From the NCBI RefSeq assembly GCF_029962835.1, contig NC_080581.1, forward strand, positions 22,892,001-22,956,000: a DNA stretch of 64,000 nucleotides, read 5' to 3'. Shown piece after piece: positions 14,495-58,603 of the stretch. The position numbers and the translations under genes are program-made. How positions within the stretch are numbered: position 1 is the stretch's first letter; each line of letters opens with the position of its first letter. A model generated the notes under the pieces. That model was not told where the DNA came from and ran no database searches. It saw only the letters and a list, made by a program, of their open reading frames with translations. The DNA is from Magnolia sinica (Eukaryota; Streptophyta; Magnoliopsida; Magnoliales; Magnoliaceae).

Positions 14495-17400
14495 TCAATT
14501 TAAAATGCACATGCCAAGATCAAATTTTATCTTTTTGAACTTGCTTTTATCAAGAGGTTTTGTGAAAATATCAGCACGTTGATCTTCAGTAGGAATATAT
14601 TCTAGAGATATAACTTTTTCTTCTACTAATTCCCTTATATAATGAAATCTAATGTCAATATGCTTAGTATGAGAATGCTGAATAGGATTTTTTGAAATAT
14701 TTATCGCACTGGAATTATCACAATGTAATAATATAGAATCCTGTTTAATTCCATAATCACTTAGCATTCTTTGCATCCAAACAAGCTGTGTACATGCATT
14801 ACCAGCTGCAATATACTCAGCTTCAGCTGTTGAAAGTGAAATAGAATTTTGTTTCTTACTAAACCAGGAAACTAGACAATTTCCAATGAAAAAACAACCA
14901 CCACTGGTTGATTTTCTATCATCTAAATTACCAGCCCAGTCAGCATCCGAGTATCCAGCTAATTGAACATTGGTTTCATGAGGATACCAGAGACCGAGAT
15001 TTACAGTACTTGCGACATATCTAATAATTCGCTTGACAGCAATCAAGTGAGATTCTTTTGGATCAGATTGATATCTTGCGCAAATACCAACACTTAGAGA
15101 AATATCAGGTCTACTAGCAGTTAAATATAACAAACTACCAATCATACTCCGATAAAGTTTTGAGTCAACATTTTTACCATTAGAGTCTTTTGATAGTTTC
15201 AGGGTAGTACTCATAGGAGTATCGAAATTCTTGCCATTCTCAAATCCAAATCTTTTGATTAGATTCAAGGCATACTTAGATTGAGAAATGAATATTCCTT
15301 CAGGTTGTTGCTTTACTTGCAATCCAAGGAAATAAGTCAATTCCCCAACCATGCTCATTTCGAATTGTGATTTCATCAAATCTGCAAACTCAGTAGTCAA
15401 GTTAGTACAAGTTGATCCATAAATGATATCATCAACATAAATCTGTACCATCAGGATATGATCATTATGTTTCTTAACAAACAGAGTTTTATCAAGATCC
15501 CATTTGAAAATTATGAGTTAAAAGAAATTTTGTTAGTTTCTCATACCATGCCCTAGGTGCTTGTTTTAATCCATAAAGTGCCTTTTAAGCCGATATACAT
15601 GATCAGTATTTTTGGAATCTTCAAATCCCATTGGGTGTTCAACATAGACTTCTTCATGTAAATCGCCATTTAGAAAAGCACTTTTCACATCCATCCGATA
15701 GATCTTTATCTTTCTAAAACATGCAATGGATATAAATAGTCCGATAGATTCAAGACGTGCTATTGGTGCAAAGGTTTCATCGAAATCAATCCCTTCAATT
15801 TGAGTATAACCTTGTACCACCGGTCTAGCCTTGTTTCTAATTATATTTCCACATTCATCCGACTTATTTTTGAAAATCCATTTTGTTCCAATGATGTGTT
15901 TATCTTTAGGTCTTGGTACGAGATACCAAACATCATTTCTTATGAATTGGTTGAGTTCATCTTGCATCGCAACAATCCGGTTCTCATCATGAGCTTCTTT
16001 TACGTTAGATGGTTCAATTTGGGATGTAAAACATACATAATTACATATATCCTCAAGTTGTCTACGGGTGCGAACACCGGTGAGAGGGTTTCCAAGAATT
16101 TGAGTGGGAGGATGATCTTTAAAAGTCCTCAACTCAGAATCAATCCGATTCGATGAAGTATCGGGTTTATCAATGATTAGTACTTCATCATTATCTGAAT
16201 TAGAGATTGGTGTGTTTAAGTGATCATCAATGACAACATTAATGGATTCTTGAATCACACCAGTCCTTTTGTTCAGAACTCTATAAGCTCGACTGTTTAA
16301 AGAGTATCCTAGAAAAATACCTTCATCACTCTTCGTATCGAACTTTCCCAAATTTTCACGATCACGTAAAATATAGCACTTGCTGCCAAAAACTCGAAAG
16401 TATTTAACAGTAGGCTTTTTATTGAACCACAATTCGTAAGCCGTTTTATTATTATCTTTTCTAGTGTAGACTCGGTTAATAATATAGCAAGCTGTGTTGA
16501 CTGCTTCAGCCCAAAGATTTTTAGAGAGCTTCATGTTATTCAACATGACGTTAGCCATTTCTTGAAGCACCATATTCTTTCTTTCTACAATTCCATTTTG
16601 TTGTGGAGTTTTGGGAGCAGAGAATGCATGTAATATTCCTTGGTCGGTACAGAACTTCTCAAAATTGCTATTCTCAAATTCAGATCCATGATCACTACGA
16701 ATTTTACTGATTTGAGAAGATTTTTCAGTTTGAATCCTTTTGAGAACTTTTCTTACTTCTTCAAGGGTTTCAGATTTATCCCTTAAGAAGACTACCCAAG
16801 TGAATCTGGTAAAGTCATCAACTATTACCAAGATATACTTTCTCCCACCACGACTTTCCGTTCTGGTAGGTCCTATCAGGTCCATGTGGAGAAGTTCGAG
16901 TGGTCTTGATGTGGTATTTGAATTCACCTTTTTGTGTGAGTTCTTTGTTTGTTTGCCTATCTGGCACTCACCACATATTTTATCTAATTTCTGAAGTTTG
17001 GGTAAACCTCTTACAAGTTCTCGTTTGCTCAATCGATATAGCTTTCGATAATGTACATGTCCAAGACGTTTGTGCCATAAGTCAGTCTCGTCTGTATGGA
17101 CCATGTAACATGTTTGATTAGATGAGCTGGATTCACTAATAATATAGCAATTTTCAGACGTTCTATGTCCAGTTAATATTACAGAACCCTTATTGTTTAG
17201 TATTTCACAGCTTTGATTAGAAAACCGAACATTATGATTATTATCACATATTTGTGATATACTAAGCAAGTTGTGCTTTAGGCCTTCAACGTATAAAACA
17301 TTTTTAAACACCGGAAGATTAAAAATTTGAACCGTACCTTGGCCTATAATCTTGCAGTTGCTACCATCACCAAATGTGACTGAACCATCAGTCATATCTT

Positions 17401-17506
17401 TAAGATCGGTGAATAAGGCTTTGTCACCTGTCATATGCCTGGAGCATCCACTGTCTAGGTACCACTTTGAATGACTTGTTGCTTTGAAAGCAGTGTGAGC
17501 AACCAA
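14495..17506 (-). pseudogene. C1 pol region (fossil)
   Basis: Domains in - strand order are as follows. The protease (near 17460) has [12 protein letters not shown]. The integrase has the zinc-binding [14 protein letters not shown] region (about 17090-16950), then [17 protein letters not shown] and NGIVERKN of the catalytic core (about 16890-16580). RT (about 16000-15200) includes the YVDDIIYG motif. RNase H (about 14980-14500) has LSTAEAEY and ADIFTKPL. The order protease-integrase-RT-RNase H is Copia. In an active element this polyprotein would process RNA to cDNA and insert it. Here it is not one open frame, so it is treated as a fossil. Confidence 0.92.
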
Positions 17507-17569
17507 GCAGGTGACTTTAGGAACCCATTTTATAACTGTTTTGGGTTTAGGAACATAGTTGGTCTTCTT

Positions 17570-19246
17570 TTATGTATACTTGTAGGAATGACCTATAGAG
17601 TTAGATTTTAATAGCTCCTTGAGTAAATCAACTATCTTTTCAGCTAGTGGATTTCGATTCTGATTAAAGTTGACATGGCTGTTTCTAGGCTTTTGAAAAG
17701 TTTTTGAATTTTTAGAAAAATCTTGATAAGTACTTTTCCCTTTTGAGTTTGAGGACTCTCCTTTAACAAACATAGGAGGAGTATACTTTTGTTTAGGAGA
17801 TAAATTTTTATCATAGCCCAACCCGGATCGATCACCACATTTTCTTGATCCGGATAACAGTTTTTCTAACTTTGGATCACCTTGGGCATATTTCCATGTG
17901 TCCTTTAAACTCAGAAGAGAAGATACTTCAGTTTTAAGATTCTCAATTTCAGATTTTAAATCAACAATTAGTGAGTTTTTGAATTCCAAATCACATTTTG
18001 ATTTTTCAAAACTATCTGAAATTTGTGATTTTTCTAAGACAAGTGAATCAAAACAATTTTTGAGTTTAGAAAACTTTTCTTTTTGAAGTTTAAGTTTGAT
18101 AGCAATTTTACAACTTTCCTTATATAGGGCATTGTAAGCATCTTGAAGATCATCTTTATTTTCACATTCACTATTCAGATTTTCTTCACTTGTAGAGTCA
18201 TTATCTGAAAATGTGAATTTGGCTAGAGTCATAAGAGCTTTGACCTCATTGCCCGACTCAGTTTTAGAATCTTCTGATTTAGAAGAACCTTTAGAATCAG
18301 ATGATTCATCCCATGTAGCCAACATACCCTTCTTCTTGGGTTTGTCCCTTTTAGGACATCTATTTGCTAAGTGCCCATATTCTAGACAGTTGTAACATTG
18401 ACTATCTTTCAAGGTTTTTCGAGATTTGGGTCTAAACTTCTTTTTGTCATTTGATTTTTGAAAATCAACCCTTTTCTTGCTTTTGAAAATCTTATAAAAT
18501 TTTTTAGCTAAAATAGCCATATCATCTTCTGAATCAGAATTTTCTTCTGAATTACATTTAGAAGATTTTAGTGCGATAGATTTTCCTTTAGGAGCTTTAA
18601 AGTTTAACTCGTAGGTTTGTAGTGAACCAACTAGTTCTTCTACCCTCATATTATCCGTATCACGAAGTTCCTGGATTGCAGTTACTTTAGAATTGAACCA
18701 TTCAGGAAGTGAGCGTAGTATTTTTGCACACACTTTACTTTCTGGGATTTTATCACCAAGACCCCACATTAAGTTTACAATGTCATTCAATCTAGTGTAG
18801 AAGTCTCTAAACATTTCATTTTCCTCCATATGAATTTCTTCAAATCTGGTTATGAGGAGTTGGACTTTAGATTTTTTGACAATTGTAGTACCCTCGTGTG
18901 TCATTTCTAATATATCACAAGCTTGCTTTGCAGTATCACAAGAAATGATTCTTTTGAACTCATCCGGTGATAGTGCGCAAGTAATTGCATTTAGTGCTTT
19001 AGCATTTGCACTACTCTCACTTTTCTAAAGGGTGGTCCATTGGTAATATGGTGTGGTTTTCATAGATTTTGAACCATCAACCCCAGTAACTTCTATGATA
19101 GGAGGATTCCATTCAGTCACTGTGGCTTGCCACACATTTTCATCCATTGATTTGAGGAAGATCCTCATTCTGGCTTTCCAATAAGCATAGTTGGAGCCAT
19201 CAAAGGGTGGAGGCCTAGTGACTGAAAGGCTATCAAAATTTGACAT
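17570..19246 (-). pseudogene. C1 gag region (fossil)
   Basis: The N-terminal part near 19240 carries the Copia gag start (FDGSNYAYWKARMRIFLKSM). The middle shows the UBN2-type region (LPEWFNSKVTAIQELRD). A CCHC zinc knuckle CYNCLEYGHLANRCP lies near 18390, followed by a long charged coiled-coil-like stretch rich in Ser, Lys and Glu. Gag would form the particle around element RNA. It is broken here. Confidence 0.9.
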
Positions 19247-47600: not shown

Positions 47601-48140
47601 CCCTAACTCTAAATCATAAGCCTAAAGGAAAATTCCTACAGCAATATAGAAAGTTAGTGGATGAGAAGTTAGAAGGAAATTACCAAATTAGAAGTTCCTA
47701 TGCTAGATCCTGCAAAACAAACAACAACAACCAAAAAAAAAGTCAGTTCTAAGAATAGAAGGTCTAAAAATAGAAAATTCCTAAAATAGAAATAGAAATT
47801 AAACTAGTTTCTAAAAAGGAAAAATTTCTAAAAACCGTAAATAGAAAGTTTCTAAACTAGTTAGGAAAGCTCTAAACCTAAAATAGAAATTAAGTTTCTA
47901 ATAAAAGAAATCTTGGAATAGAAAGTTTCTATAAATAGAAAATAAAACCTACAAAATTAGAAAACTAGAAAGAGATTACCAAATTAGAAAACTTAAAAAT
48001 AGAAAAATAGAAAAATTAGAAAGAGATTACCAAATTAGAAAGTATATGTCAAGATCCTACAAAACAAGAAAGTTAAGTTAGTTTTTAAAAATCAACAGAA
48101 AAACCTAGTCCTAAAACTAGAAAACTAGAAAAACCATAAT

Positions 48141-48240
48141 CACTACACCACAAACGTCATTTAGGAATGGTTTTAAGCCGTTCCTAAAAGAGGCATCGCA
48201 AAAAATCTGAGACGGTTCAATACCGTATCAAGTACCGTTT
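48141..48240 (+). repeat. CACTA left terminus with subterminal inverted motif
   Basis: CACTACACCACAAACGTCAT is followed by TAGGAATGGTTTTAAGCCGTTCCTA, an almost perfect inverted repeat centred near 48178. More GACGGTTC/ACCGTTTC motifs follow. CACTA transposases bind such short subterminal repeats. Confidence 0.85.
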
Positions 48241-49206
48241 CAAAATTGTTCTTAATGTTACCAACGGTCAAACTGCAAATATTCGGAACGGTATTTTTCA
48301 TTATTTACACACGGCCAATAAAAGTTGTACATTTGTTTTTATATTTAAAAACCATAGAATATTATATACAATTAAAAATTAATATTGAACAAATATGGTG
48401 CAACTTTATAATAAAAATTATATATATTTACAACAATAAGTTTACAATTGCATGAATACAATAAAAATAAATAAATAAAATCTTCCATGACGTGCTCCAC
48501 TCCTAGAGAAAACACAAGGTCCCACCATTCCTTAGGATGACCTTAACCAATCCCAATCCTCTCATTGCCGCTCTCATAAGGCTTTTGAATCAATTTTTGC
48601 CACCTTGAAAGAAAGAAAATGTAAGGAACAGAATAAAAGACAACAATGAATGAGAATTAGCAAATGTGTCTATTGTTTGATCTTCACATACATGTTACCA
48701 CTTCTCACATGAGAGGTGGTCCACATGCAAGCATGTGGGTGCGCCTATTTCTTATTTAGAAAAACTTACGCTCTTGGTAACCAATGCTTAATCATAAAAG
48801 GGAACTTCACATGAAAGTAACTCAGGCTCTTTGGTTTGTGTTTTCTAGTTGATAAAATTGCATATGTATGCATTTCACAATCCAAATTTGAGGAATCATT
48901 ACCACTCATCGGATTCCATAAGAGTTAAAAATGTATCCATACTAAACCTAGGTGAAAGCTTTGATTTCAGCACAATCATTTAGCTTAGAATCTAGAATCT
49001 TTTCAACATATGATTACTCAGGAAATGAGGTGGGTAATTCATCTATTGGGAATGTGGAGGCATTTTGGGTAATGCCGCAACGGATATTCAAATTAAAAAT
49101 GAAATGGAAATCTACGTTTCTGTTTTTCAACAAGAAAAGAATGAACATGCTGAAAATCAGTAACGGAGCAAATGTTTTCTACATTAATGATGATAAAAAG
49201 AAATAC
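48241..49206. other. CACTA interior, no recognised gene
   Basis: AT-rich sequence. Nothing on either strand matches a family I know. Confidence 0.4.
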
Positions 49207-49738
49207 CTGACGTTCCAGATTTTGCTATGGTTCCTAGGTTCTTGATCAGATCTTCCTTTGTCATCCCAATACCTCGGTCACAAATAGAAAGAATTTTCTT
49301 CTCCTCGTCCAATTTCATCTGCATTATACGACAAATACAGCAAACTAAAATGTTAAAAAGAGAAACTAACCCACTTCTCAGAATGTTAATATCAAACATC
49401 ATTCTTATGGTGCGATGTGATGCACCAGCAACTTGAATGCACGTATTGGTCTAATAAAGTGGAAACAACCAAACTTTAAAATCCTTCTCCACAGCTTGCT
49501 TATATTGATGGCCTATAAATCACTTTCAAGTTGGAATTGAAAAACACAGCTTTACTTCCTCATTATAAATATTAGGAAACATCATTGTTCTTTGTCATTT
49601 CCAATATCACCTTCACCCAAAATAATTAGTATACTAAAAAATGAGCCATCACTAACCAGGATCTCAAGCTTTGCAGTATCGCCTTTCACCCAAAATATCC
49701 TTATCCGTAAGCGAAAGAAATCTGATCTTATCCAATGC
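49207..49738 (-). pseudogene. Captured HSP90-7 / GRP94 (endoplasmin) fragment, two exons
   Basis: Exon one (49738-49657) reads ALDKIRFLSLTDKDILGE, then shifts frame by one extra base before the rest of the exon. Exon two (49318-49207) reads [19 protein letters not shown] then [18 protein letters not shown]. This is the ATP-binding N-terminal domain of the ER-resident HSP90; the DRGIGMT loop contacts nucleotide. Both exons keep AG at their 5' and GT at their 3' border, with an intron of 338 bp between them, so genomic DNA was captured. The family protein is about 800 residues; only about 65 are represented. R is replaced by C before DRGIGM. It is a non-functional piece, but its identity is clear. 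Confidence 0.92.
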
Positions 49739-50271
49739 CTGCCAAACAAACGGAACGTGTCACATTAAAACCACCTGCTATGTCAATTAAAGAGACAGGG
49801 CCAAATTTTTTTGTATTTATTTATCTTTTATCTTCTTCTTCTACATTTATGTTGTTTTGGTTTGAGAGAAGTTCAAACATACTCTTAAGTTGGTAGTGTT
49901 GTTTCATGCACATACCAGGCCCAGTTGCACCATGGCTAGACGTGTAAGAAGCACAAAAGGCTGTAGAGGTCTTCCATATTATTCTGTAACCATTTCAAAA
50001 CAGGCATTTTAATGGCTATTGTAATTTATTTAAGACCCACCAGCTAAAATGATAAAAAAAATCAGATCTGGAACCCAGTAATGCTAATATTGAGAAAGGG
50101 AAAGGTGTCATGCCATGTGGATAGGCCAGCCACTTCATTGACTCAATTCTAAGCTGAATCACTTGGCTTTGCCAGAAACCAAGCACTGCACAGCTTTTTC
50201 ATCCATAAACTTTGTTTTTTTTTTCTTTATAAAAAATAAATAATAAATAAAATAAAAAGAAAAATGCTAAC
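49739..50271. other. CACTA interior, no recognised exon
   Basis: Non-coding AT-rich sequence that may include intron of the captured HSP90 piece. Confidence 0.4.
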
Positions 50272-50346
50272 CTCAAATGTTGATTCCTCAATATCCTCGT
50301 CATTATAATCCAGGAGCGCATCCAATGAGAGTGAAATTGAGCGAAG
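50272..50346 (-). pseudogene. Captured exon, tentatively SHORT ROOT IN SALT MEDIUM 1-like
   Basis: A 75 bp stretch bounded by GCAG and GTTAGC reads LRSISLSLDALLDYNDEDIEESTFE without a stop. Exact splice borders around an open phase-0 block make it a convincing exon. The acidic motif LDALLDYNDEDIEESTFE resembles, from memory, the C-terminal part of plant CCAR1/RSA1-type nuclear proteins. The assignment is weak; that it is exonic is much surer. Confidence 0.4.
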
Positions 50347-51967
50347 CTGCAGGATACAACTGTACAGTGAGATAAATATGAATAACATGTTATACCCATT
50401 GGGTATAACATTGTGTCTCCCCACCACATGTTACGATACATGCATGCACTTCATCTGACTCAAAATACACCTTTTGGCTAAGCAAGTAACGTTTATATGA
50501 TGTTTCAGGGTTTCCAACTAGATGCATGTTGGGATAAACAACACCTTTTGGCGAGGCCCGGCACGTTGAAAGTGTGTCCGTCTTCGGCTACTCTTGTGAA
50601 CAACAATCTATGAAACAAGGAAATGAAAATAAGTAAATTGATTGTAATTGTTAACAGCACAACCTTTTGAAACATCATGTGCATCAAGACTGAAAAGGAC
50701 AAAAATGTAAATGGATCTACAATCATAGAGAGATAAAAAAGAACCATGAAGTGCCCACCTTTTGAGAACAGTATCATCCACATTAACGAAGTACTGCCTG
50801 GAAGGACAATTATTTTAGTGAATCATTCAAACATGATCATTGAAAAGATTTATGCAAATTGCTGTGGAAAAGCCGGGCTTTACACCCATAAATAAATAAA
50901 TAAAAGCCCATGAAAATGTTCAATTCTATAATTTTGATGCTTATTCAAACTTAAAGATCTCGTCAAAATCTGGTATGAAAGGAGAACTTACAAGGCAATT
51001 AGCATACAGGTCGATGTTTGAGCAAGGCCTGAAATTTATGGATCTAATGAGCATAGAGATAATGTTTGCATTGATAGCTATTGAGTTTGTCCTCGCTAAT
51101 AACTGTGGAATTTTCAATCATGTTGCTAAGACAAATCTTTTTTTTTTAAGGTCTAAGACAAATCTAAGAAACTAAGAAACACGATTCTGACAATTCCTCA
51201 CAATCATTAATGACCAATAAAGCAAACATTCAGATTAAGGATTACCAGGTCTTGAAATAAGATGGATTTTGGAGCAGGGCCCGGCAAACTTCCAGCTGAC
51301 TTCATCCAAAGACTTCACCTCCTTATGAGGCAATAAAAATATAAATTAACCAAGACTGTAGTAAGCACACAATTATACCTGATTCAACAGGTTCTTATCT
51401 ACAACAAGAGAAGTGGACTTCTAACAAATATGCTAATATTCCCGAAACAAAACAAGCACCATTTTTCAATTCAACTTATATCAAAACAAAACATATATAT
51501 GGTTCATTTGATTAAAAAGAGGCATTTAACATTCTATAAAAGTATTTGATGCACCACATAATCTATTGCAATTCCATATATCTGGATTGAATTTGCATGG
51601 GACCAAATGCAATTCCATACCACCTAATACCATACTTGTCTCTATCTAAAGGTGCTAATTGTCTCTATCCCATTAGGCCCCAAATTGCAATCTTTACTTC
51701 AATGTTGGATTTCCTCGCTATGAATACTAGGAAAACTCTTTCATTTTATGTTTTTTTTTTCCCTTATTTCTTGATCTTTTCTTTCGTTTTGTTTTCTTTC
51801 TTTCTTTTCTTTTCTTTTCTTTTTTTTTATTTTTTTTTATTTTTTTTTTTTTTTAAATTTCCTACTAAAAGAACATTCAGACACAACAATTGTATGCATA
51901 GCTAAAATGAAATGAACCAATGTAATGGAGTTGTCAGACAATTCTTGCTGAATTGTGTGGGACATAC
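50347..51967. other. CACTA interior, mostly unassigned
   Basis: There are possible short exon-like pieces on the - strand near 50505-50610 ([12 protein letters not shown]) and 51250-51310 that I cannot place. A T-rich run fills 51750-51855. Confidence 0.35.
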
Positions 51968-52512
51968 CTCCAGCATGACCCATGAGGCGAGCGGTGCAGA
52001 AAGACCAGCAGTAAATGCAACAATAGGCTTTTCTCAGCTCAGCATAACTCTAATAATAGCATCAAAGCTAAACAACATTTTTTTATAAAGATGTAAAAAC
52101 GTGTGCCCATTCAAATAAGCACTAATTTGTCTAATCATGTCTCTGATTGTCTTTTCTCTTAAACAACTCAACTTGTATATTTTCAACTAACACGAAAAAA
52201 AAAAAAAAAGATACTTCCGTCCATGGATTTTGCTTACCACTCTGCAAAACATGGAACGATGCACTATGGAACCTTTTGGGGACTAATGCTTGCTTAATCA
52301 TGAACATTTGATGCAGAAGCACTAAAACTAAAGCTTGGGTAAATGTATTTCTATTATTTTTTATTTGCCAAACATTCCTTATCATGAAAAATCCATATCA
52401 TTGAAGTGATTGGCCTTATACTTAATTGAATCTATCCCGATCTTCAATGCCTTGATTAAGGCTGCAGCATCCTCTTCTGCAGTCCCTCCAATCTCTCCGA
52501 TAAGAATAATAC
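51968..52512 (-). pseudogene. Captured succinyl-CoA ligase alpha subunit fragment, two exons
   Basis: The first exon (from 52512, preceded by TTCAG) reads GIILIGEIGGTAEEDAAALIK. The second (52032-51968, bounded by AG and GTATGT) reads KPIVAFTAGLSAP, then shifts frame into MGHAGG. These are consecutive blocks of the mitochondrial TCA-cycle enzyme that makes succinyl-CoA from succinate, around the conserved GEIGGTAEEDAA and MGHAGA motifs near the catalytic histidine. The intron between them is about 400 bp. Only about 45 of some 330 residues are present. Confidence 0.9.
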
Positions 52513-52769
52513 CTGAAATGTAAATAGCACTAGCACCATCAGATACATCTAACCATTAGTTCATATGGTATGTTTGTGAATGATTTAAATCAAAATAAGG
52601 AAACTATAAATGCAATCAGTGTCTTTTAATCAGGGTATACAATCATCAACTGCAAACCCCATACCAAAAGACAAGTCTGTATGTGATGATCTGGTTGACG
52701 TGATGGGTCATGATAGAATGTGGTGATCTGATTGATTCGATGGACCATCATGTAGATCTGATTGATTCA

Positions 52770-52840
52770 ATCAGAAACGGCTTAGAGCCGTTTCTGAACC
52801 AAAATCCTGGACGTTCCACATCTGCAATTTTGGTGTAGTG
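52770..52840 (-). repeat. Internal CACTA terminus
   Basis: Read inward from 52840 the sequence is CACTACACCAAAATTGCAGA, and further in it carries AGAAACGGCTCTAAGCCGTTTCT, a perfect inverted repeat apart from its centre. It has the same plan as the two outer ends. The following three bases are TGA, which do not match AAT, so it does not pair with 48141 as a separately inserted element. Confidence 0.85.
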
Positions 52841-52904
52841 TGAAATCTCTGGTTTTTTGTTGAGTAACCATTGGATTGACGAGTTCAATGTATTTGGTTT
52901 TTGT

Positions 52905-53340
52905 GCTTTAAAGGTTCTAATTGAGCCAAAGCAATGGGATTATCTTGTTGGGCAATTCAAGCAGGAGTTTTGCAGGCTGTATGGCATGACCCTTGAGCCC
53001 TTGTTGAATATTTATCTGCAAGCAGGGCTGTTTGGCTCTCAAGACTCCGTATCCACATTTATTCATTGACTACTACTTCCACAGAATGCTTAGCTATCTG
53101 CTATCCTTGTTTCTTGATTATATGCCTAATAAAGTTAGTGTCATCAACTGATACTTTCTTCTATTTTTACCTTGACCACACTAAGATTCTGTTACAATGA
53201 TGATTGCACCGAAGAAGACCCTCTCTCACAGGAGAGCTTCTGCAACCTGGCCTTGCCATTGCAATTCTCAAAGCAGCAATATTCAAAGCTTGTGTGCTAT
53301 GTCCCTAAAGAACTGATGGATTTCGATAATCCAAACTGAC
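52905..53340 (+). pseudogene. Captured MAEA/GID9 (CTLH E3 ligase subunit) fragment
   Basis: One exon (about 52911-53045, after TTTAAAG) reads VLIEPKQWDYLVGQFKQEF then CRLYGMTLEPLLNIYLQAGL and then loses frame. A second (about 53185-53336) reads NDDCTEEDPLSQESF, then NLALPLQFSKQQYSKLVCY and PKELMD. These match the region between the CRA domain and RING-like domain of macrophage erythroblast attacher, a subunit of the CTLH/GID ubiquitin ligase. This is the only captured fragment on the + strand, and it starts about 70 bp from the internal CACTA end at 52840. Confidence 0.9.
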
Positions 53341-54205
53341 AGCAGCCCAGTGACTATTCCATAGTCCATAACAACAATAGGACTTGTAAGAAACAATGCG
53401 TGGCACAATTATATGCTTTAGATAAGCAAGGAGTAGAATTCTTAGAAGCCCAAAACGAAATCAACCAACTGCAAGCACTAAGATAAGCAAGAACTCAGGT
53501 TATGTCAGCCCAAATATATTCATGACAGATGCACCAACAGATTTACATCCCAGGATACGAATATACTCAGGCTATGTCAGCCCAAATATACTCTGGCTAT
53601 GTCAGCCCAAGTATACTCAGCCATAGAAAAGTTTTCATAAATGCTACAAGCTTGAATCAAGAACTGCTTACCGAGATCCAAAACTACAAACCCAATGTAT
53701 GGAACAATGGACTTTGGTATGATTAACGTTGTATGTCTAGCATGTGCCATCAACAAGGGCAGTGCTTTTATATTCCTGACGAACTTGAATGGAATTCTAC
53801 CACTTATGGTATTATTTTGTAATTCAATTTGATCTGTTTCCGCTTTCCATTTTTCTATCCAGTTTGGTTTCTTTGCTTCTGAGGCTAGAGTTCAGAGTAC
53901 AATTTATGATTGTCATCCAGTACCTTTTTCATTTACCAGAACTTTTTCTCCTTAACATAGTTGCTATTAGGCAATCTATTAGTGTTGATGAACAAATGTA
54001 AATGAATAACAAAACAAGTCACCTTACCAAAAACAGAGCACCAAATCAGCATTCAGGTAAGAATAACTGTGCACTTCATGTACCTGACCATGAGAAACCT
54101 TCACCCATGAAGCTTGATGTTTGAAGCATCCCAAGGTTTTATTGTGACCAACCAAAAAAAAATATACTCCATGAAAGATATTGACATAAAAATCAACCAA
54201 AAACA

Positions 54206-54258
<53 letters not shown>

Positions 54259-54895
54259 AGCCTTGCATCTGAAAACAGCGTCGAGGGAAATCCAGTCGAA
54301 GAATTTGTCCCTCTCAATCTTCTTGGTGGCCTTCTCATCACCTTTTTCACAGTTGTTGAATGGGACAGCCAGATTCTACAGCCAGATTCTACAATACTCT
54401 GTAACCATCAATCTCAGAGTTAGAAGCATATAAGAAATTTATCTTTTCTAAATACAATAGTGAAGAATGCCAGGAGAATATGGATACAGTGAAAAAATTA
54501 CCCCAAAATACAATAGTGAGATGTTTTTAGTGGAAAATTTTGCCTTGAAGATATCAATAGATAAGATAGCTGAATTAGAGAACCAATATAAAGAGATGCT
54601 GAAATGCGGCATATGCTAATTGGATTGCACCGAGCCCACTCAAAGCAACCACAACAGATGACATTACAGATATGCCCGCTGTACTTGATTGATAATTGGC
54701 CTGTGCTTAATTGTGCAGCCCAAATCCCTATATAGACTCTACAGATGCCAACCCAAAGTAAATGAAACAGCTGACATTACACAAATAGGCCTGCTGCACA
54801 GTGTAAATCAATGATCAGCAAATGCTTCAGTGTGCAGCACAAAAATAAAACATGTTTAAAGACTTGCTAGGAACACACTTGAGTTTGAGACATAC
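53341..54895. other. CACTA interior with short repeats, no firm gene
   Basis: Three GGCTATGTCAGCCCAAATATA copies lie at 53493-53625. A (GA)n run lies at 54212-54255. On the - strand just above it, 54256-54365 can be read as NNCEKGDEKATKKIERDKFF, an exon-like piece I cannot place. A diverged duplication (period about 118 bp) covers about 54653-54845. Confidence 0.4.
54212..54255. repeat. (GA)n microsatellite
   Basis: About 22 GA units. Confidence 0.97.
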
Positions 54896-54961
54896 AATTC
54901 AGACAGTGGGAGATTAGCCAGGAAGATAACCGATCCAGTGAATTGGTTGTTCTGTAAGTGA
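54896..54961 (-). pseudogene. Captured STRUBBELIG-family LRR kinase exon
   Basis: A 66 bp exon with an AACAG acceptor and a GTATGT donor reads HLQNNQFTGSVIFLANLPLS. Plant STRUBBELIG-receptor family proteins have LQNNQFTG followed by LANLPL in their extracellular leucine-rich repeats, and one-repeat exons of about 70 bp are usual there. Only a single repeat is present. It lies between the unassigned block and the callose synthase piece. Confidence 0.8.
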
Positions 54962-55341
54962 CTGTTGGAGAAAAGTGCCAAGTGTCAACAGCCTACATTT
55001 TCAGTGGAGACAAGGCCACAGAAAGAATGTTCAGTTTATGATTAGTGGAGTATTTTCCATCAACAATAGAAACATCATATTTTATTACAGTTACATGCAA
55101 AATTTGGACAGCATAAATAGGATTCCTATAGTGAACTAGGATAGTTCTCCTTTCTTAAAAAAGAAAAATAAGAGAAAAAAAAAAAAAGCCAGTCCTAGTA
55201 TAGAGAAAAATCAAAGCAATCCAGAGAATGAAAATCAGCCACATTGAAGTTTTGAGTACCCATTGGCCAGCAACACCAAGGAGCATCTCTGCTTGAAAAA
55301 ACTGTCATAAAGCCATGTGTTTGAAATAACCACATCATCAC

Positions 55342-55603
55342 CTGGTGAATCTCAGCAATATGATGACCACCAGTGTCATAAGGCAGATGACAAACAATTT
55401 AACTGCCCGGTAGTAAATGTGCTCCTTCGCAGCGTACTTGTCATGAGCATGCATGATTACCGGATAAATAGCAACAGCCACAACCATATAGATCCAAGAC
55501 AGCAAATAGACGGAAATGCTGGTGCTTTTATTGGCAATGCCAAGCTGGTATACGATCCCATACTGGAAGAAAAGAAAGCGGAGATCTAGAATTATCTCCA
55601 AAT
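55342..55603 (-). pseudogene. Captured callose synthase (GSL) C-terminal fragment
   Basis: The - strand frame reads LEIILDLRFLFFQYGIVYQL, then a membrane segment YLLSWIYMVVAVAIYPVIM, then HDKYAAKEHIYYRAVKLFV and another hydrophobic run. It ends at a GTGATG donor. DKYAAKEHIYYR between two membrane helices is the hallmark of the C-terminal part of plant 1,3-beta-glucan synthase, closest in my memory to GSL8/GSL10 types. The enzyme normally has about 1900 residues in the plasma membrane; here about 85 survive, without a stop. Confidence 0.93.
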
Positions 55604-55673
55604 CAAATGATTCAAGTCTACAAAGAGTAGATTATGCATTTTTACAGAAACAGAGAAGTAATTGAGCATGAAC

Positions 55674-55773
55674 CTGTATCATGTCAGCCGGACCATAAGT
55701 TTCTGTCCGTATAATTACAAGACGGTCTAACAGGCCAACATGTATGCCATGTGGACTGCTCATATCAGTTCCC
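55674..55773 (-). pseudogene. Captured RuvB-like 1 (RVB1/RIN1) exon
   Basis: A 100 bp exon with AG acceptor and GTTCAT donor reads GTDMSSPHGIHVGLLDRLVI then IRTETYGPADMIQ. This is the AAA+ ATPase segment of RuvB-like 1 (TIP49a) after sensor 1; the family has SPHGIPVDLLDRLVIIRTE, so P to H and D to G changes are present. The protein acts in INO80/SWR1 and R2TP complexes. Only one exon is held, in frame and without a stop. Confidence 0.93.
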
Positions 55774-56058
55774 CTACATCATATGCATTGAAGAAAAAAA
55801 AATAACATAACCTTGCAGGAAGATATTGCAGATTAATGCTAAAAAAGGCATGTAAAGATTTCTAGGAAAAACAAAATTCAGAAAAGTGCCACGGGATAAT
55901 ATTTAGCAAATGGCTAATTATCATCTTCTAACAATACACTTTTTTCAATGGATCTCCTAGCAATATATTTCAAGCTCCTAAACTGGTAACGTGCTGACAT
56001 CACTGTAGCTAGGAAGAAAGATGATTTGTGAACATAAGGGAGGCAAGTTTCTTGACCT

Positions 56059-56130
56059 TTCAACAACAACAACAATAAAAAATCGTCATCATCATAGCTT
56101 TGTCCCAGCTGTTTGGAGTCAGCTAATACA
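56059..56130 (-). mobile_element. Au-like SINE 3' end fragment
   Basis: The + strand CAACAACAACAACAATAA.. followed by AGCTTTGTCCCAGCTGTTTGGAGTCAGCT resembles the complement of the plant Au SINE 3' end (GACCCCAAATAGTTGGGATA AAGGCTTTGTTG). The rest of the element is not recognisable. Confidence 0.45.
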
Positions 56131-56173
56131 ACCAAACAAGTACCAAAAAAAGAGCACTGCGATTAAAGCTCAC

Positions 56174-56765
56174 CATCCCAGCCAAACGGGGCAGGATCCT
56201 TATCCCATTTTTTATATTTTGACTATGCTGTCTCCCATGTATCAAGCATGTATGCCTTACTCATATCCAACCCATTTGCATCAAGAAGTTTTCGAATTTT
56301 CTTTTTCTTCTCTTCAATCCATTTCTGTTTGGAAACGCCTATTGACTCAGGAGGAGCTTCTATTCGTTTTTCTCTGCCAGCATTGCAATTTGGTTGGTCT
56401 TTCTTGCCTCATTCTGCAAGTAGAGAACCATGGCGAGAAATAGTCATATTAAACTTCACATAGTGATACTACTATTTTAAGGTAAAAGGAAATGACAAAG
56501 TCATGTTAACTTCACATAATGATACTACTATTTTTATGGGTTGGAAGAGAGTTGCCATCTTCAGCGTCAATTCAAACAGTTTCTTCTGTCTCCCAGTAAG
56601 ATTCGAGTAGTCTACTTCGACATTTTCCTCAACAGGCTGTCCATTATTACCATCAACATGTTCTTCACCATCAGTGTTTTCTGCTACACCTCATTTTTGT
56701 TCTTCATTTTGATCAGAGCCATCTAAGAAGGATAGGCCTCCAACACTCCCCTTTTTAGTTTCTAT
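56174..56765 (-). pseudogene. Captured SYF2 pre-mRNA splicing factor fragment, two exons
   Basis: The first exon (about 56765-56550) reads an acidic part with one stop, then ENVEVDYSNLTGRQKKLFEL. The second (56413-56174, GCAG acceptor and GTGAGC donor) reads NEARKTNQIAMLAEK, then after a frameshift EAPPESIGVSKQKWIEEKKK, LLDANGLDMSKAYMLDT and, after a stop, KYKKWDKDPAPFGWD. These are consecutive conserved blocks of SYF2 (GCIP-interacting protein family) of the spliceosomal NTC complex. It is the most complete captured piece, covering roughly half of the protein family length. Confidence 0.92.
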
Positions 56766-57780
56766 AACAATATGTAAAACAGTCAAAATTGAGAAAGAAT
56801 TAAATGATTGAAATGGATGAATCATTACAATACTAGAATATAATATCATCATGTCTTCATGAGGCAATTGCGAGTTGTTTGATGCAATAAAATCCAATGA
56901 AGGAATTGCAGATTTTATTTATTTTTTGAAAGATGACAACTTTATTAAAAATGGCAAAGCCGAAAGAAAAAGAACAACAAACAACAAAAAAGACAAAGAA
57001 AGAGGAAGCACAAAAATTACAAGAGCTGCAGCCCAACCCAAAGAACTACATTGGCAAGGGCCAAAGAGAAAACACTTCTAGAAGAACCACATTTATCTCG
57101 GAAACATCTCTCATAAGCATTTTATCGAACAGTATGTGTGCATCATTAATCTAACCACATTTTACATACATATCAATCAAAGAGGTCCCAACATACAGAT
57201 CAAACATGGGTTATCAAGTATGTGAAAGAAAAAACTCACAAAGGTGAGGAACTCAATCTAGCAGATGTAAATGTGTCTATGAAATCAACTAATCTAGATC
57301 AAGAACTGATAGAACAAACTATCATAAAACTAAAAAGAAAAAACTAAAGGAAAAATATACTCCAAAAAATCCACATGGAAGAAGCATCAGCTAATAATTC
57401 CAGATATATACCATTTTGTAACTTAAAAAATAAGAAAAAATATCCTTAAATGGTCTGGAAAAATGTATGGACGGCGTGGATATACAACACATCATCAAAG
57501 TGGGCTCCACGGTAAGGGTAACACCACTAAGGTGTGTAACCCAAGTAACACCTAATCCACTCCTGTTACTGTCCTTAGAAAAATTTAAAAAGCTAGTTCA
57601 TGTTTTTGCAAACTCAGTTCAACATCAAACATGTCAACATTGCTCGGTCCATTTTTAAAACACAGAACAAACAGCTTACATGCAAGCCATCCATTAGGTG
57701 AGTCCAGTCTTAAATATGTTATGACCCAGCAATAAGATCAAACCTACAATCTTTGCCTTTTGTCTCTGTCTTCGATTAAC
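56766..57780. other. CACTA interior, no recognised gene
   Basis: There is a diverged GTGGATATACAACACATCAT module at about 57460-57500, related to the dispersed family of the window. Otherwise unassigned AT-rich sequence. Confidence 0.4.
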
Positions 57781-57784
57781 CAAA

Positions 57785-58048
57785 AAGACGGACAAAAATC
57801 AAGAAAAGAATATCTGAAAACTTAACAGTGGTAGTTGTGTTAGTTAATGGAGGAGCCGGTGTTGTGCCCAAGTCCTCATAGAACTTGTACGTCTCATACC
57901 TCAAATTGCAAATTGGTCCAACAACTCTCCCACCTTGTTTTCCATTACAGCACGTAGGAATCCGACCCACAGCATCTTCTAAACACGCACCGCAATCTCT
58001 CCTCGGCAAATCGTTTGTGCACTGCATAAGCCCATATGGTTTACCTTT
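57785..58048 (-). pseudogene. Captured DUF26 (cysteine-rich receptor-like kinase) fragment
   Basis: The - strand frame reads KPYGLMQCTNDLPRRDCGAC then LEDAVGRIPTCCNGKQGGRV and CNLRYETYKFYEDLGTTPAP. It shows the DUF26/Gnk2 signature C-x8-C-x2-C followed by CCxGKxGGR and CNxRYExYxFY. The Thr/Pro-rich stretch after it is the usual linker towards the membrane segment. DUF26 proteins are secreted or plasma-membrane receptors in plants. An internal methionine at 58027 opens an 83-codon frame. It is the fragment nearest the right end, just below a CT-rich stretch (on the - strand) that looks like a promoter or 5' untranslated region. Confidence 0.9.
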
Positions 58049-58440
58049 GTAGATCTATCGGTAAACAAAGAAGATGATGAAGATCGACGGTGTCGGAGGG
58101 GAGCATTGCCAGATCGGAAGGTTTCATATGCAAAATCGATGGGTTTCGATCAGGGGTTTAGGGTTTTCAAAGGGTCTAGGTGCGGACGATGATGGGGGTT
58201 TTGATAGGGATGAGTTTGAGGTTTTGGAAGGAGATGGGAAGGAGATGGGGGTTTTGAAAGGGGCTAGGTAGGAGGCTGGCGGACCTTGGCCGGAAGAAAT
58301 GAGAAGAAAAACGAGAGAGGAAATCGATTTCTAACCAAATGAGAAGAAAAAAAAGATAGAGGAAGAGAACAGGGCATGGAAGGGGAGTTTTTAATCAGAA
58401 AATGGCCGTACAGTGTTTGGCTTCGTTGGAATTATATTTT
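58049..58440 (-). promoter_or_regulatory. Possible promoter / 5' untranslated stretch at CACTA right end
   Basis: On the - strand this is C/T-rich with CCCTAAACC near 58155 (telo-box like) and pyrimidine runs, as in many plant 5' leaders. It lies between the right terminus and the DUF26 piece. Transcription from here would run through all - strand fragments. This is inference from composition. Confidence 0.3.
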
Positions 58441-58556
58441 ATCTTTATTTTTTTTCCCTGTAGTGGTACGGTTCTAACTTTGAAATGGCTTAAAACGTTA
58501 AGCCGTTCCAGAACCAAAATCTAGTTTCGTTCGAGAATTGATATTTTGGTTTAGTG
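58441..58556 (-). repeat. CACTA right terminus with subterminal inverted motif
   Basis: Read inward: CACTAAACCAAAATATC, then GGTTCTGGAACGGCTTAACG and TTTTAAGCCATTTC, an imperfect inverted repeat like those at the other two ends. Confidence 0.85.
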
Positions 58557-58603
58557 AATCTTAACCTAATTTTAAAACTAGTTAATCTCAAAAAAATGTA
58601 ACC

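Follow-up and report, generated by a model that had tools for sequence, protein, structure and literature searches.

In a 64,000-nucleotide stretch of the Magnolia sinica genome (NC_080581.1, positions 22,892,001 to 22,956,000; the whole stretch is called the window here, and positions given without a C number are counted from its first letter), we found an element of 10.4 kb, at 48141-58556, in which about eleven unrelated plant genes are represented as broken pieces (Table 1). The element starts with CACTACACCA and finishes with TGGTTTAGTG, and together with its flanks it reads AAT-CACTACACCACAAACG ... GATATTTTGGTTTAGTG-AAT, with exact ends and an exact target-site duplication (TSD), as an initial annotation made from the sequence had proposed. 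The terminal inverted repeat (TIR) starts with CACTA and 9 of 10 terminal bases are paired, as in the CACTA superfamily, and the 3-bp TSD of that superfamily is present both here (AAT/AAT) and in a related element on C7 (TCA/TCA). When loose patterns were used for the ends (6 starts and 5 ends in the 64-kb window), 48141-58556 was the sole start-end combination at a spacing of 0.1-25 kb that is flanked by a matching 3-bp TSD. The chance of an AAT match at one site is 2.7%, the share of AAT among the triplets of the window; that the TSD arose by chance seems unlikely, given that the C7 element with its matching end types carries a TSD too. The initial 200 bp of the element contain 7 copies of the motif ACGG (35/kb) and the final 200 bp have it at 15/kb, whereas its density in the flanking DNA is 3.4/kb on the left and 3.0/kb on the right, so subterminal repeats are present as well. 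Helitrons have no TSD, and Pack-MULEs have TSDs of 8-11 bp and long TIRs; the 3-bp TSD and the CACTA ends rule out both identities. In a six-frame Pfam search of 48400-58299, that is, of everything inside the outer ~260 bp at each end, we detected none of the transposase families up to an E value of 0.1, in agreement with the initial annotation. Rfam and tRNA scans gave nothing informative.

The gene pieces were identified from several kinds of matches. In addition to those in Table 1, the HSP90/endoplasmin piece has a protein match at E 8e-10, the MAEA piece has a plant protein match at E 3.9e-37, and the pentatricopeptide repeat (PPR) piece, read through one stop, matches a synthetic PPR protein at E 1.8e-27. 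For the succinyl-CoA ligase alpha piece, the PDB match was obtained with typed, joined exons, and the Pfam match (Ligase_CoA) reaches E 0.05 only. We take the LAIKA exon to be CCAR-like. In the case of the SYF2-like block, the top match in PDB, chain 8xi2_M, carries a cyclophilin-type PPIase label, human SYF2 is collinear with the piece at E 1.5 only, and Pfam gave no SYF2 match. This block is a real gene piece, but the name SYF2 is weakly supported. A set of unexplained peptides, searched against PDB together with the LAIKA and SNF2 peptides, produced chance-like matches only. Eight gene pieces had been named in the initial annotation, and seven of them are backed by Pfam, PDB or plant protein matches, while SYF2 stands as a gene piece through its identity to a C6 locus, under a tentative name. 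The earlier count of at least eight donors held, and three further pieces (RAD5B-like SNF2, the LAIKA exon and PPR) are added here.

MAEA is the sole identified gene piece on the plus strand. Several of the pieces have frameshifts or stops. GT/AG intron borders are found at most exon edges (RAD5B, MAEA, HSP90, callose synthase, RuvBL1, SYF2-like and LAIKA, by eye), and in the succinyl-CoA ligase piece one donor site is GC and the second acceptor was lost in a deletion. The intron borders rule out capture of processed mRNA, and since the introns of the donors match as well, the proposal that genomic DNA was captured is borne out.

Table 1. Features of the element at 48141-58556 and its borders (window positions). 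L009, L010, L011 and L024 are related elements elsewhere in the genome; L031 and L032 are the two MAEA loci.
Feature	Position	Strand	Evidence or remark
TSD AAT, left	48138..48140	.	same triplet at 58557-58559
Left CACTA terminus (L), subterminal ACGG-type repeats	48141..48390	+	genome matches, motif enrichment
RAD5B-like block b (exon 48530-48602 + intron)	48530..48796	-	94.8% to native gene C14:75.757 Mb; tblastn of P0122
Extra segment within RAD5B intron	48797..49168	.	in L009, L010, L011; native intron without match
HSP90-7/endoplasmin block, nested in captured RAD5B intron	49169..49773	-	96.2% to native gene C4:100.62 Mb including introns
RAD5B-like block a (exon 49912-49989)	49774..50059	-	94.1% to native C14 gene; E 4.5e-4
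Deletion in window copy, TCAG microhomology	50060..50062	.	L011 has 822 and L009 833 more bases here; RAD5B exon DNA in those of L011
LAIKA-domain exon	50272..50346	-	Pfam PF19256 E 2.6e-6; splice sites by eye
Succinyl-CoA ligase alpha block	51673..52590	-	PDB E 4e-6; compared with L011, 527 bp deleted at 52031
Internal right CACTA terminus (I), taken to close element A on the right	52766..52840	-	similar right ends in relatives
MAEA/GID9 block, two exons + introns	52843..53334	+	94.9% to L031 (C4:116.03 Mb), 92.1% to L032 (C13:56.12 Mb)
First part of element B cargo; CCAA microhomology at junction with MAEA	53331..53547	.	97.7% to L024
STRUBBELIG-family leucine-rich repeat exon	54877..54961	-	SRF6 chain 28wb_A E 1.2e-5
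Callose synthase 12 exon	55342..55617	-	Magnolia sinica callose synthase 12-like protein, 90% identical, E 1.4e-38
RuvB-like 1 exon	55674..55773	-	PDB E 4e-9; splice sites by eye
SYF2-like block (tentative name)	56058..57108	-	91% over 1063 bp to C6:105.31 Mb locus
PPR repeat piece, in-frame stop	57109..57219	-	PDB PPR proteins
DUF26 (stress-antifung) block	57440..58037	-	Pfam E 1.1e-8; C1:7.85, 7.99 Mb 91-94% (hit list)
Right CACTA terminus (R), variant of I terminus	58307..58556	-	alignment to I; similar end closes C7 element
TSD AAT, right	58557..58559	.	same triplet at 48138..48140

The genome was searched for the sources of the cargo (1,838,573,281 bases in 127 contigs). Probable donors of the MAEA, SYF2-like, RAD5B, HSP90, succinyl-CoA ligase and DUF26 pieces were placed by DNA or hit list: donor DNA was read at five places (two MAEA, SYF2-like, RAD5B and HSP90), and the ligase and DUF26 donors come from hit lists. 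The remaining pieces (callose synthase, RuvBL1, STRUBBELIG, LAIKA and PPR) are named from protein matches; for callose synthase, the closest protein comes from a contig as long as C5. The probable donors or paralogues are 91-96% identical to the cargo, introns included. Both MAEA loci run on into the gene past the captured block, which the C4 locus matches over 492 bp; the C13 locus has a stop within an exon. The native RAD5B gene (94-95% overall) has uninterrupted exons on both sides, the match to the native HSP90-7 gene extends over 607 bp, and C1:0.21 Mb matches the SYF2-like block at 91%, like the C6 locus. The succinyl-CoA ligase match at C4:29.08 Mb (94%/82%, hit list only) has a ~530-bp gap where the window copy has its 527-bp deletion. 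With no transposase match in the part searched, captured fragments of host genes, and cargo that is traceable to donor genes of the same genome with introns included, the element is a Pack-CACTA.

The large number of pieces might suggest unrelated insertions in different backgrounds, or a cluster of host genes, and we found nothing else in favor of such an origin. A single pair of ends with a single TSD encloses all of the pieces, and several of them recur in the same order and orientation in a sister copy on C4 and in copies of a second CACTA family, both described below. The probable donors are on C4 (three places), C14, C6 and C1, and because they lie at separate places on several chromosomes, this is not a host gene cluster. 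We regard either origin as extremely improbable; the initial annotation had named both as grounds for giving up its reading, and neither materialized.

The RAD5B and HSP90 pieces preserve a record of more than one capture. The two blocks of the native RAD5B gene that match the element are 40 bp apart. In L009 and L010, the RAD5B blocks are separated by the extra segment (up to 49181) and by 54 or 56 more bases, and the HSP90 piece is absent from these two relatives as it is from the native RAD5B intron. In the window and in L011, the HSP90 block 49169-49773 replaces the 54/56 bases. At the left HSP90 junction, a short similar stretch (TTT-CTA) is common to the relatives and to the HSP90 gene, and at the right junction there is little or none. 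The simplest order of capture would be RAD5B, then the extra segment, then HSP90. Judging from these alignments, capture is serial and nested, with HSP90 inside the captured RAD5B intron.

The initial annotation pictured a single element and overlooked an internal CACTA terminus, for which a fusion of two Pack-CACTAs is the better reading. At 52840 there is a complete right-type terminus (I), oriented as a right end, and the MAEA block begins two bases on. I and the outer right terminus (R) are 75% identical over 56 bp, a score reached by 0/1000 shuffles, also without the first 10 bases, and the subterminal hairpin of I resembles that of R. The left terminus (L) has matches at 40 places including the window (from the 40 of 417 candidates that were scored). 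We fetched 20 of the listed L-end relatives, 10 kb each, and found an I-type right end in seven (7/20), three of which have an exact 3-bp TSD: L019 (9582 bp, TSD CCA), L020 (7843 bp, TSD GTG) and L024 (5884 bp, TSD CCA). Because of these exact TSDs, L and I can be considered a working pair, and 48141-52840 therefore looks like a complete element, which we call element A. The cargo beyond MAEA (element B) is partly present in L024, which holds 53331-53547 and 54485-55347 between L and I ends of its own. The junction between MAEA and B has CCAA microhomology. In the 10 kb fetched for each of L009 and L010, which are relatives of the A part, we found neither a B part nor a right end.

Other L-end relatives carry other gene pieces, so the suggestion of a gene-shuffling element belonging to a family with varied cargo is supported. 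L019 contains cysteinyl-type tRNA synthetase and RabGAP-TBC pieces (Pfam; none on the other strand) and L024 an amine oxidase piece (Pfam, five of six frames), while L020 has no Pfam match in six frames. No transposase was matched by Pfam in L019, L020 or L024 (five of six frames in L024).

A sister of the window element, L011 at C4:62.36 Mb, contains both the A and the B part at 93-97%. It lacks 52629-53164, a 536-bp deletion with TTTTA 5-bp microhomology that takes in the first MAEA exon as well as the internal terminus. Conversely, the window copy lacks the 822 bp beside RAD5B and the 527 bp in the ligase piece, both of which are present in L011. The C7 element (C7:36756749-36776556, 19,808 bp) combines an L-type left end with an R-type right end and has the TSD noted above. 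Compared with the window, this element shows a gap of ~13 kb near 56237-56240, probably a later insertion.

In the published tandem-fusion (Catoni/Gisby) model, two neighboring elements are mobilized by their outer ends, and the internal ends are deleted or mutated (PMC8903248). In our case the internal right terminus is kept at 52840 and deleted in L011, and the left terminus of B is absent from both copies. An A terminus followed by MAEA and then by L024-type cargo is the arrangement that tandem fusion predicts (PMC8903248). We consider it likely that this non-autonomous element of Magnolia sinica is a fusion of two smaller Pack-CACTAs. Element A, with L and with I at 52840, would have gathered the RAD5B piece, then the HSP90 piece nested in the RAD5B intron, and the LAIKA and succinyl-CoA ligase pieces. 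Element B would have contained the STRUBBELIG, callose synthase, RuvBL1, SYF2-like, PPR and DUF26 pieces and would have lost its left end. The two would have been joined across the MAEA piece, after which a CACTA transposase supplied by another element may have acted on the outermost ends, L and R, and the composite would then have moved as one unit, leaving the TSD AAT. For the single captures, the junctions suggest that genomic DNA was copied into breaks by microhomology-guided repair.

The same structure might instead have arisen in a single Pack-CACTA that acquired its pieces in successive captures inside one original L/R pair of ends, in which case the internal terminus would be a captured scrap of a transposon. 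This would fit the TSD AAT shared by the outer ends and the serial capture supported for HSP90, and no free element A (L to I) was found among the elements examined. However, the internal end is a whole right terminus and faces the correct way, L+I pairs occur as elements with TSDs, L024 holds part of the B cargo in an L/I element, and MAEA adjoins the internal end at the place where tandem fusion predicts intervening DNA. Based on these observations, we think that a single element is rather unlikely.

The fusion of two Pack-CACTAs, which we prefer, has several points against it in addition to the missing free element A. The left end of B is not present, the right end of L024 is I and not R, and a matching TSD is missing in 4/7 relatives whose right end is of the I type. 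Neither MAEA locus matches the TG that separates the MAEA block from the internal end, so that a clean insertion of A into MAEA is unsupported. Beyond the TIR, L and I resemble each other over a short stretch of 26 bp (16/1000 shuffles reach this score without the first 10 bases). The flanks of the C4 sister are unequal (AGT left, TGT right) and thus show no 3-bp TSD, and the terminal bases of the C7 element are mutated (CACGA left, TTGTG right). Our confidence in the fusion is slightly lowered because the C7 termini are mutated and because no free element A was found.

Some other features of the window were noted. Within the A part, 51325-51635 is a short block repeated at many places in the genome at 85-94%, possibly a miniature inverted-repeat transposable element that was captured by, or inserted in, element A. 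Within the B part, 53548-54484 is absent from L024 (junction TACA) and contains a GA microsatellite at ~54209-54255 and a possible exon at 54260-54375 (minus strand); short direct repeats at 53482-53618 begin upstream of 53548. Away from the element, three long reading frames at 14495-19024 (minus strand) appear by eye to encode a polyprotein of the Ty1-copia kind, with gag, integrase, and reverse transcriptase/RNase H.

Part of the cargo is also found in a second family of CACTA elements. Blocks 54710-55798, 55880-56054 and 56400-58306 are repeated elsewhere at about 96%. Besides the window and the elements on C4 and C7, 16 listed places have all or most of 56400-58306 (incomplete in 3/16). 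The RAD5B piece is listed nearby in 12/16; as this count comes from the 40 candidates scored, it does not imply that the piece is missing from the other four. Two of the 16 places were fetched whole with both flanks, and both are full elements with CACTACG ends: C5:30714836-30731538 (16,703 bp, TSD ATA) and C3:101990847-102007417 (16,571 bp, TSD AAG). The two copies are 98.6% identical over the central 9.4 kb, 94.8% in the left part with a minisatellite, and 96.3% at the right end, and 6 kb of a third copy, on C15, match the C3 copy at 98.8%. The first 6-9.5 kb fetched of this repeat contain no CACTA pair; the CACTACG ends and TSDs lie in the flanks of the two copies. In the C5 copy, six-frame searches of 9.5 kb found SNF2, TIP49 and DUF26 pieces and no transposase match (the other ~7 kb, outside the scan, is largely minisatellite and subterminal repeats). 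A telomere-like minisatellite of the TTTAGGT type, ~4.2 kb in length, lies within this C5 element (L035 5442-9655).

Apart from CACTA and ACGG-type motifs, the CACTACG ends have little in common with L, I or R. When the ends were shuffled, the score of the L end of L020 against the CACTACG right end was reached by 0/1000 shuffles and that of the window L against the left end by 1/1000, while the score of R against the left end was reached by 691/1000. Because some of these end pairs exceed shuffles, the L/I/R and CACTACG families may be distant relatives.

It could be proposed that the array was first built in the 16.7-kb CACTACG family and that the L/R elements acquired it there, given that the array blocks are at many more places (the 16 others with all or most of 56400-58306) and that the central 9.4 kb of the two copies is so much alike. 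However, the C6 locus, the window and L011 all contain a 345-bp stretch of the SYF2-like piece that is missing, with TTTCTTG microhomology, from the CACTACG copies we read. Because of the missing 345 bp, these copies are not the source of the SYF2-like part. They also lack the sequence past 58336 and most of the RAD5B-STRUBBELIG stretch, and we find an origin in the CACTACG family quite doubtful. Since the 345 bp are missing and the CACTACG RAD5B part aligns to the fuller L011 version, the CACTACG array is, for these blocks, best read as derived from an array like that of L011 or the window. We lean slightly toward the idea that such arrays are transferable modules, built by fusion in the L/I/R family, then taken over by the CACTACG family, trimmed and amplified, in which case the cargo would evolve partly independently of its carrier.

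Pack-CACTAs with multi-locus cargo are already known, as is fusion as a route of growth (PMC8903248). The soybean CACTA element Tgm-Express1 of the wp allele has intron-bearing fragments of five host genes in 5.7 kb, and its gene pieces are spliced into host transcripts (PMC1947982). The magnolia element is like Tgm-Express1 in its CACTA ends and its intron-bearing fragments of several unrelated host genes, but it has about eleven donors in 10.4 kb and visible traces of a probable fusion (PMC1947982). Maize Pack-CACTAs often contain several loci (PMC8903248), so the statement in the initial annotation that such elements usually capture one to a few loci understates the precedent (PMC1947982, PMC8903248). 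With the Pack-CACTA and Pack-TYPE elements described from Arabidopsis, maize and rice, the magnolia element shares the lack of a transposase, multi-locus cargo and a proposed growth by fusion of neighboring insertions (PMC8903248, PMC13317346). It differs from them in having an internal terminus in one copy that is deleted in a sister, a nested capture that can be compared with the native gene, and cargo blocks common to a second CACTA family. Maize Helitrons also contain gene pieces from different loci (PMC13317346, PMC1947982); in contrast, the magnolia element has CACTA ends and a 3-bp TSD.

A CACTA transposase has been reported in Magnolia ashei (PMC8978399). The published M. sinica assembly comprises 1.84 Gb and 19 chromosomes, and the main text of the genome paper has no word starting with "CACTA" or "transposon" (PMC10999834). 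In the titles and abstract starts listed from an open-licence library, we found no work on Magnolia Pack-CACTAs or on cargo common to CACTA families. Relative to that literature, what is new is the internal end beside a sister without it, the nested capture read against native genes, the number of donors in one CACTA, and the presence of one array in two CACTA families.

The growth of Pack elements has so far been judged from observed local insertions and from the comparison of clusters. Here, one genome offers a composite with an internal end, a sister without it, another element that shares the end types and has a TSD, relatives without the nested capture, and native donors as references, and together these copies make the order of events and the signatures of repair testable base by base. 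If one array is indeed common to two CACTA families, the copy number of shuffled arrays would not be limited by their family of origin.

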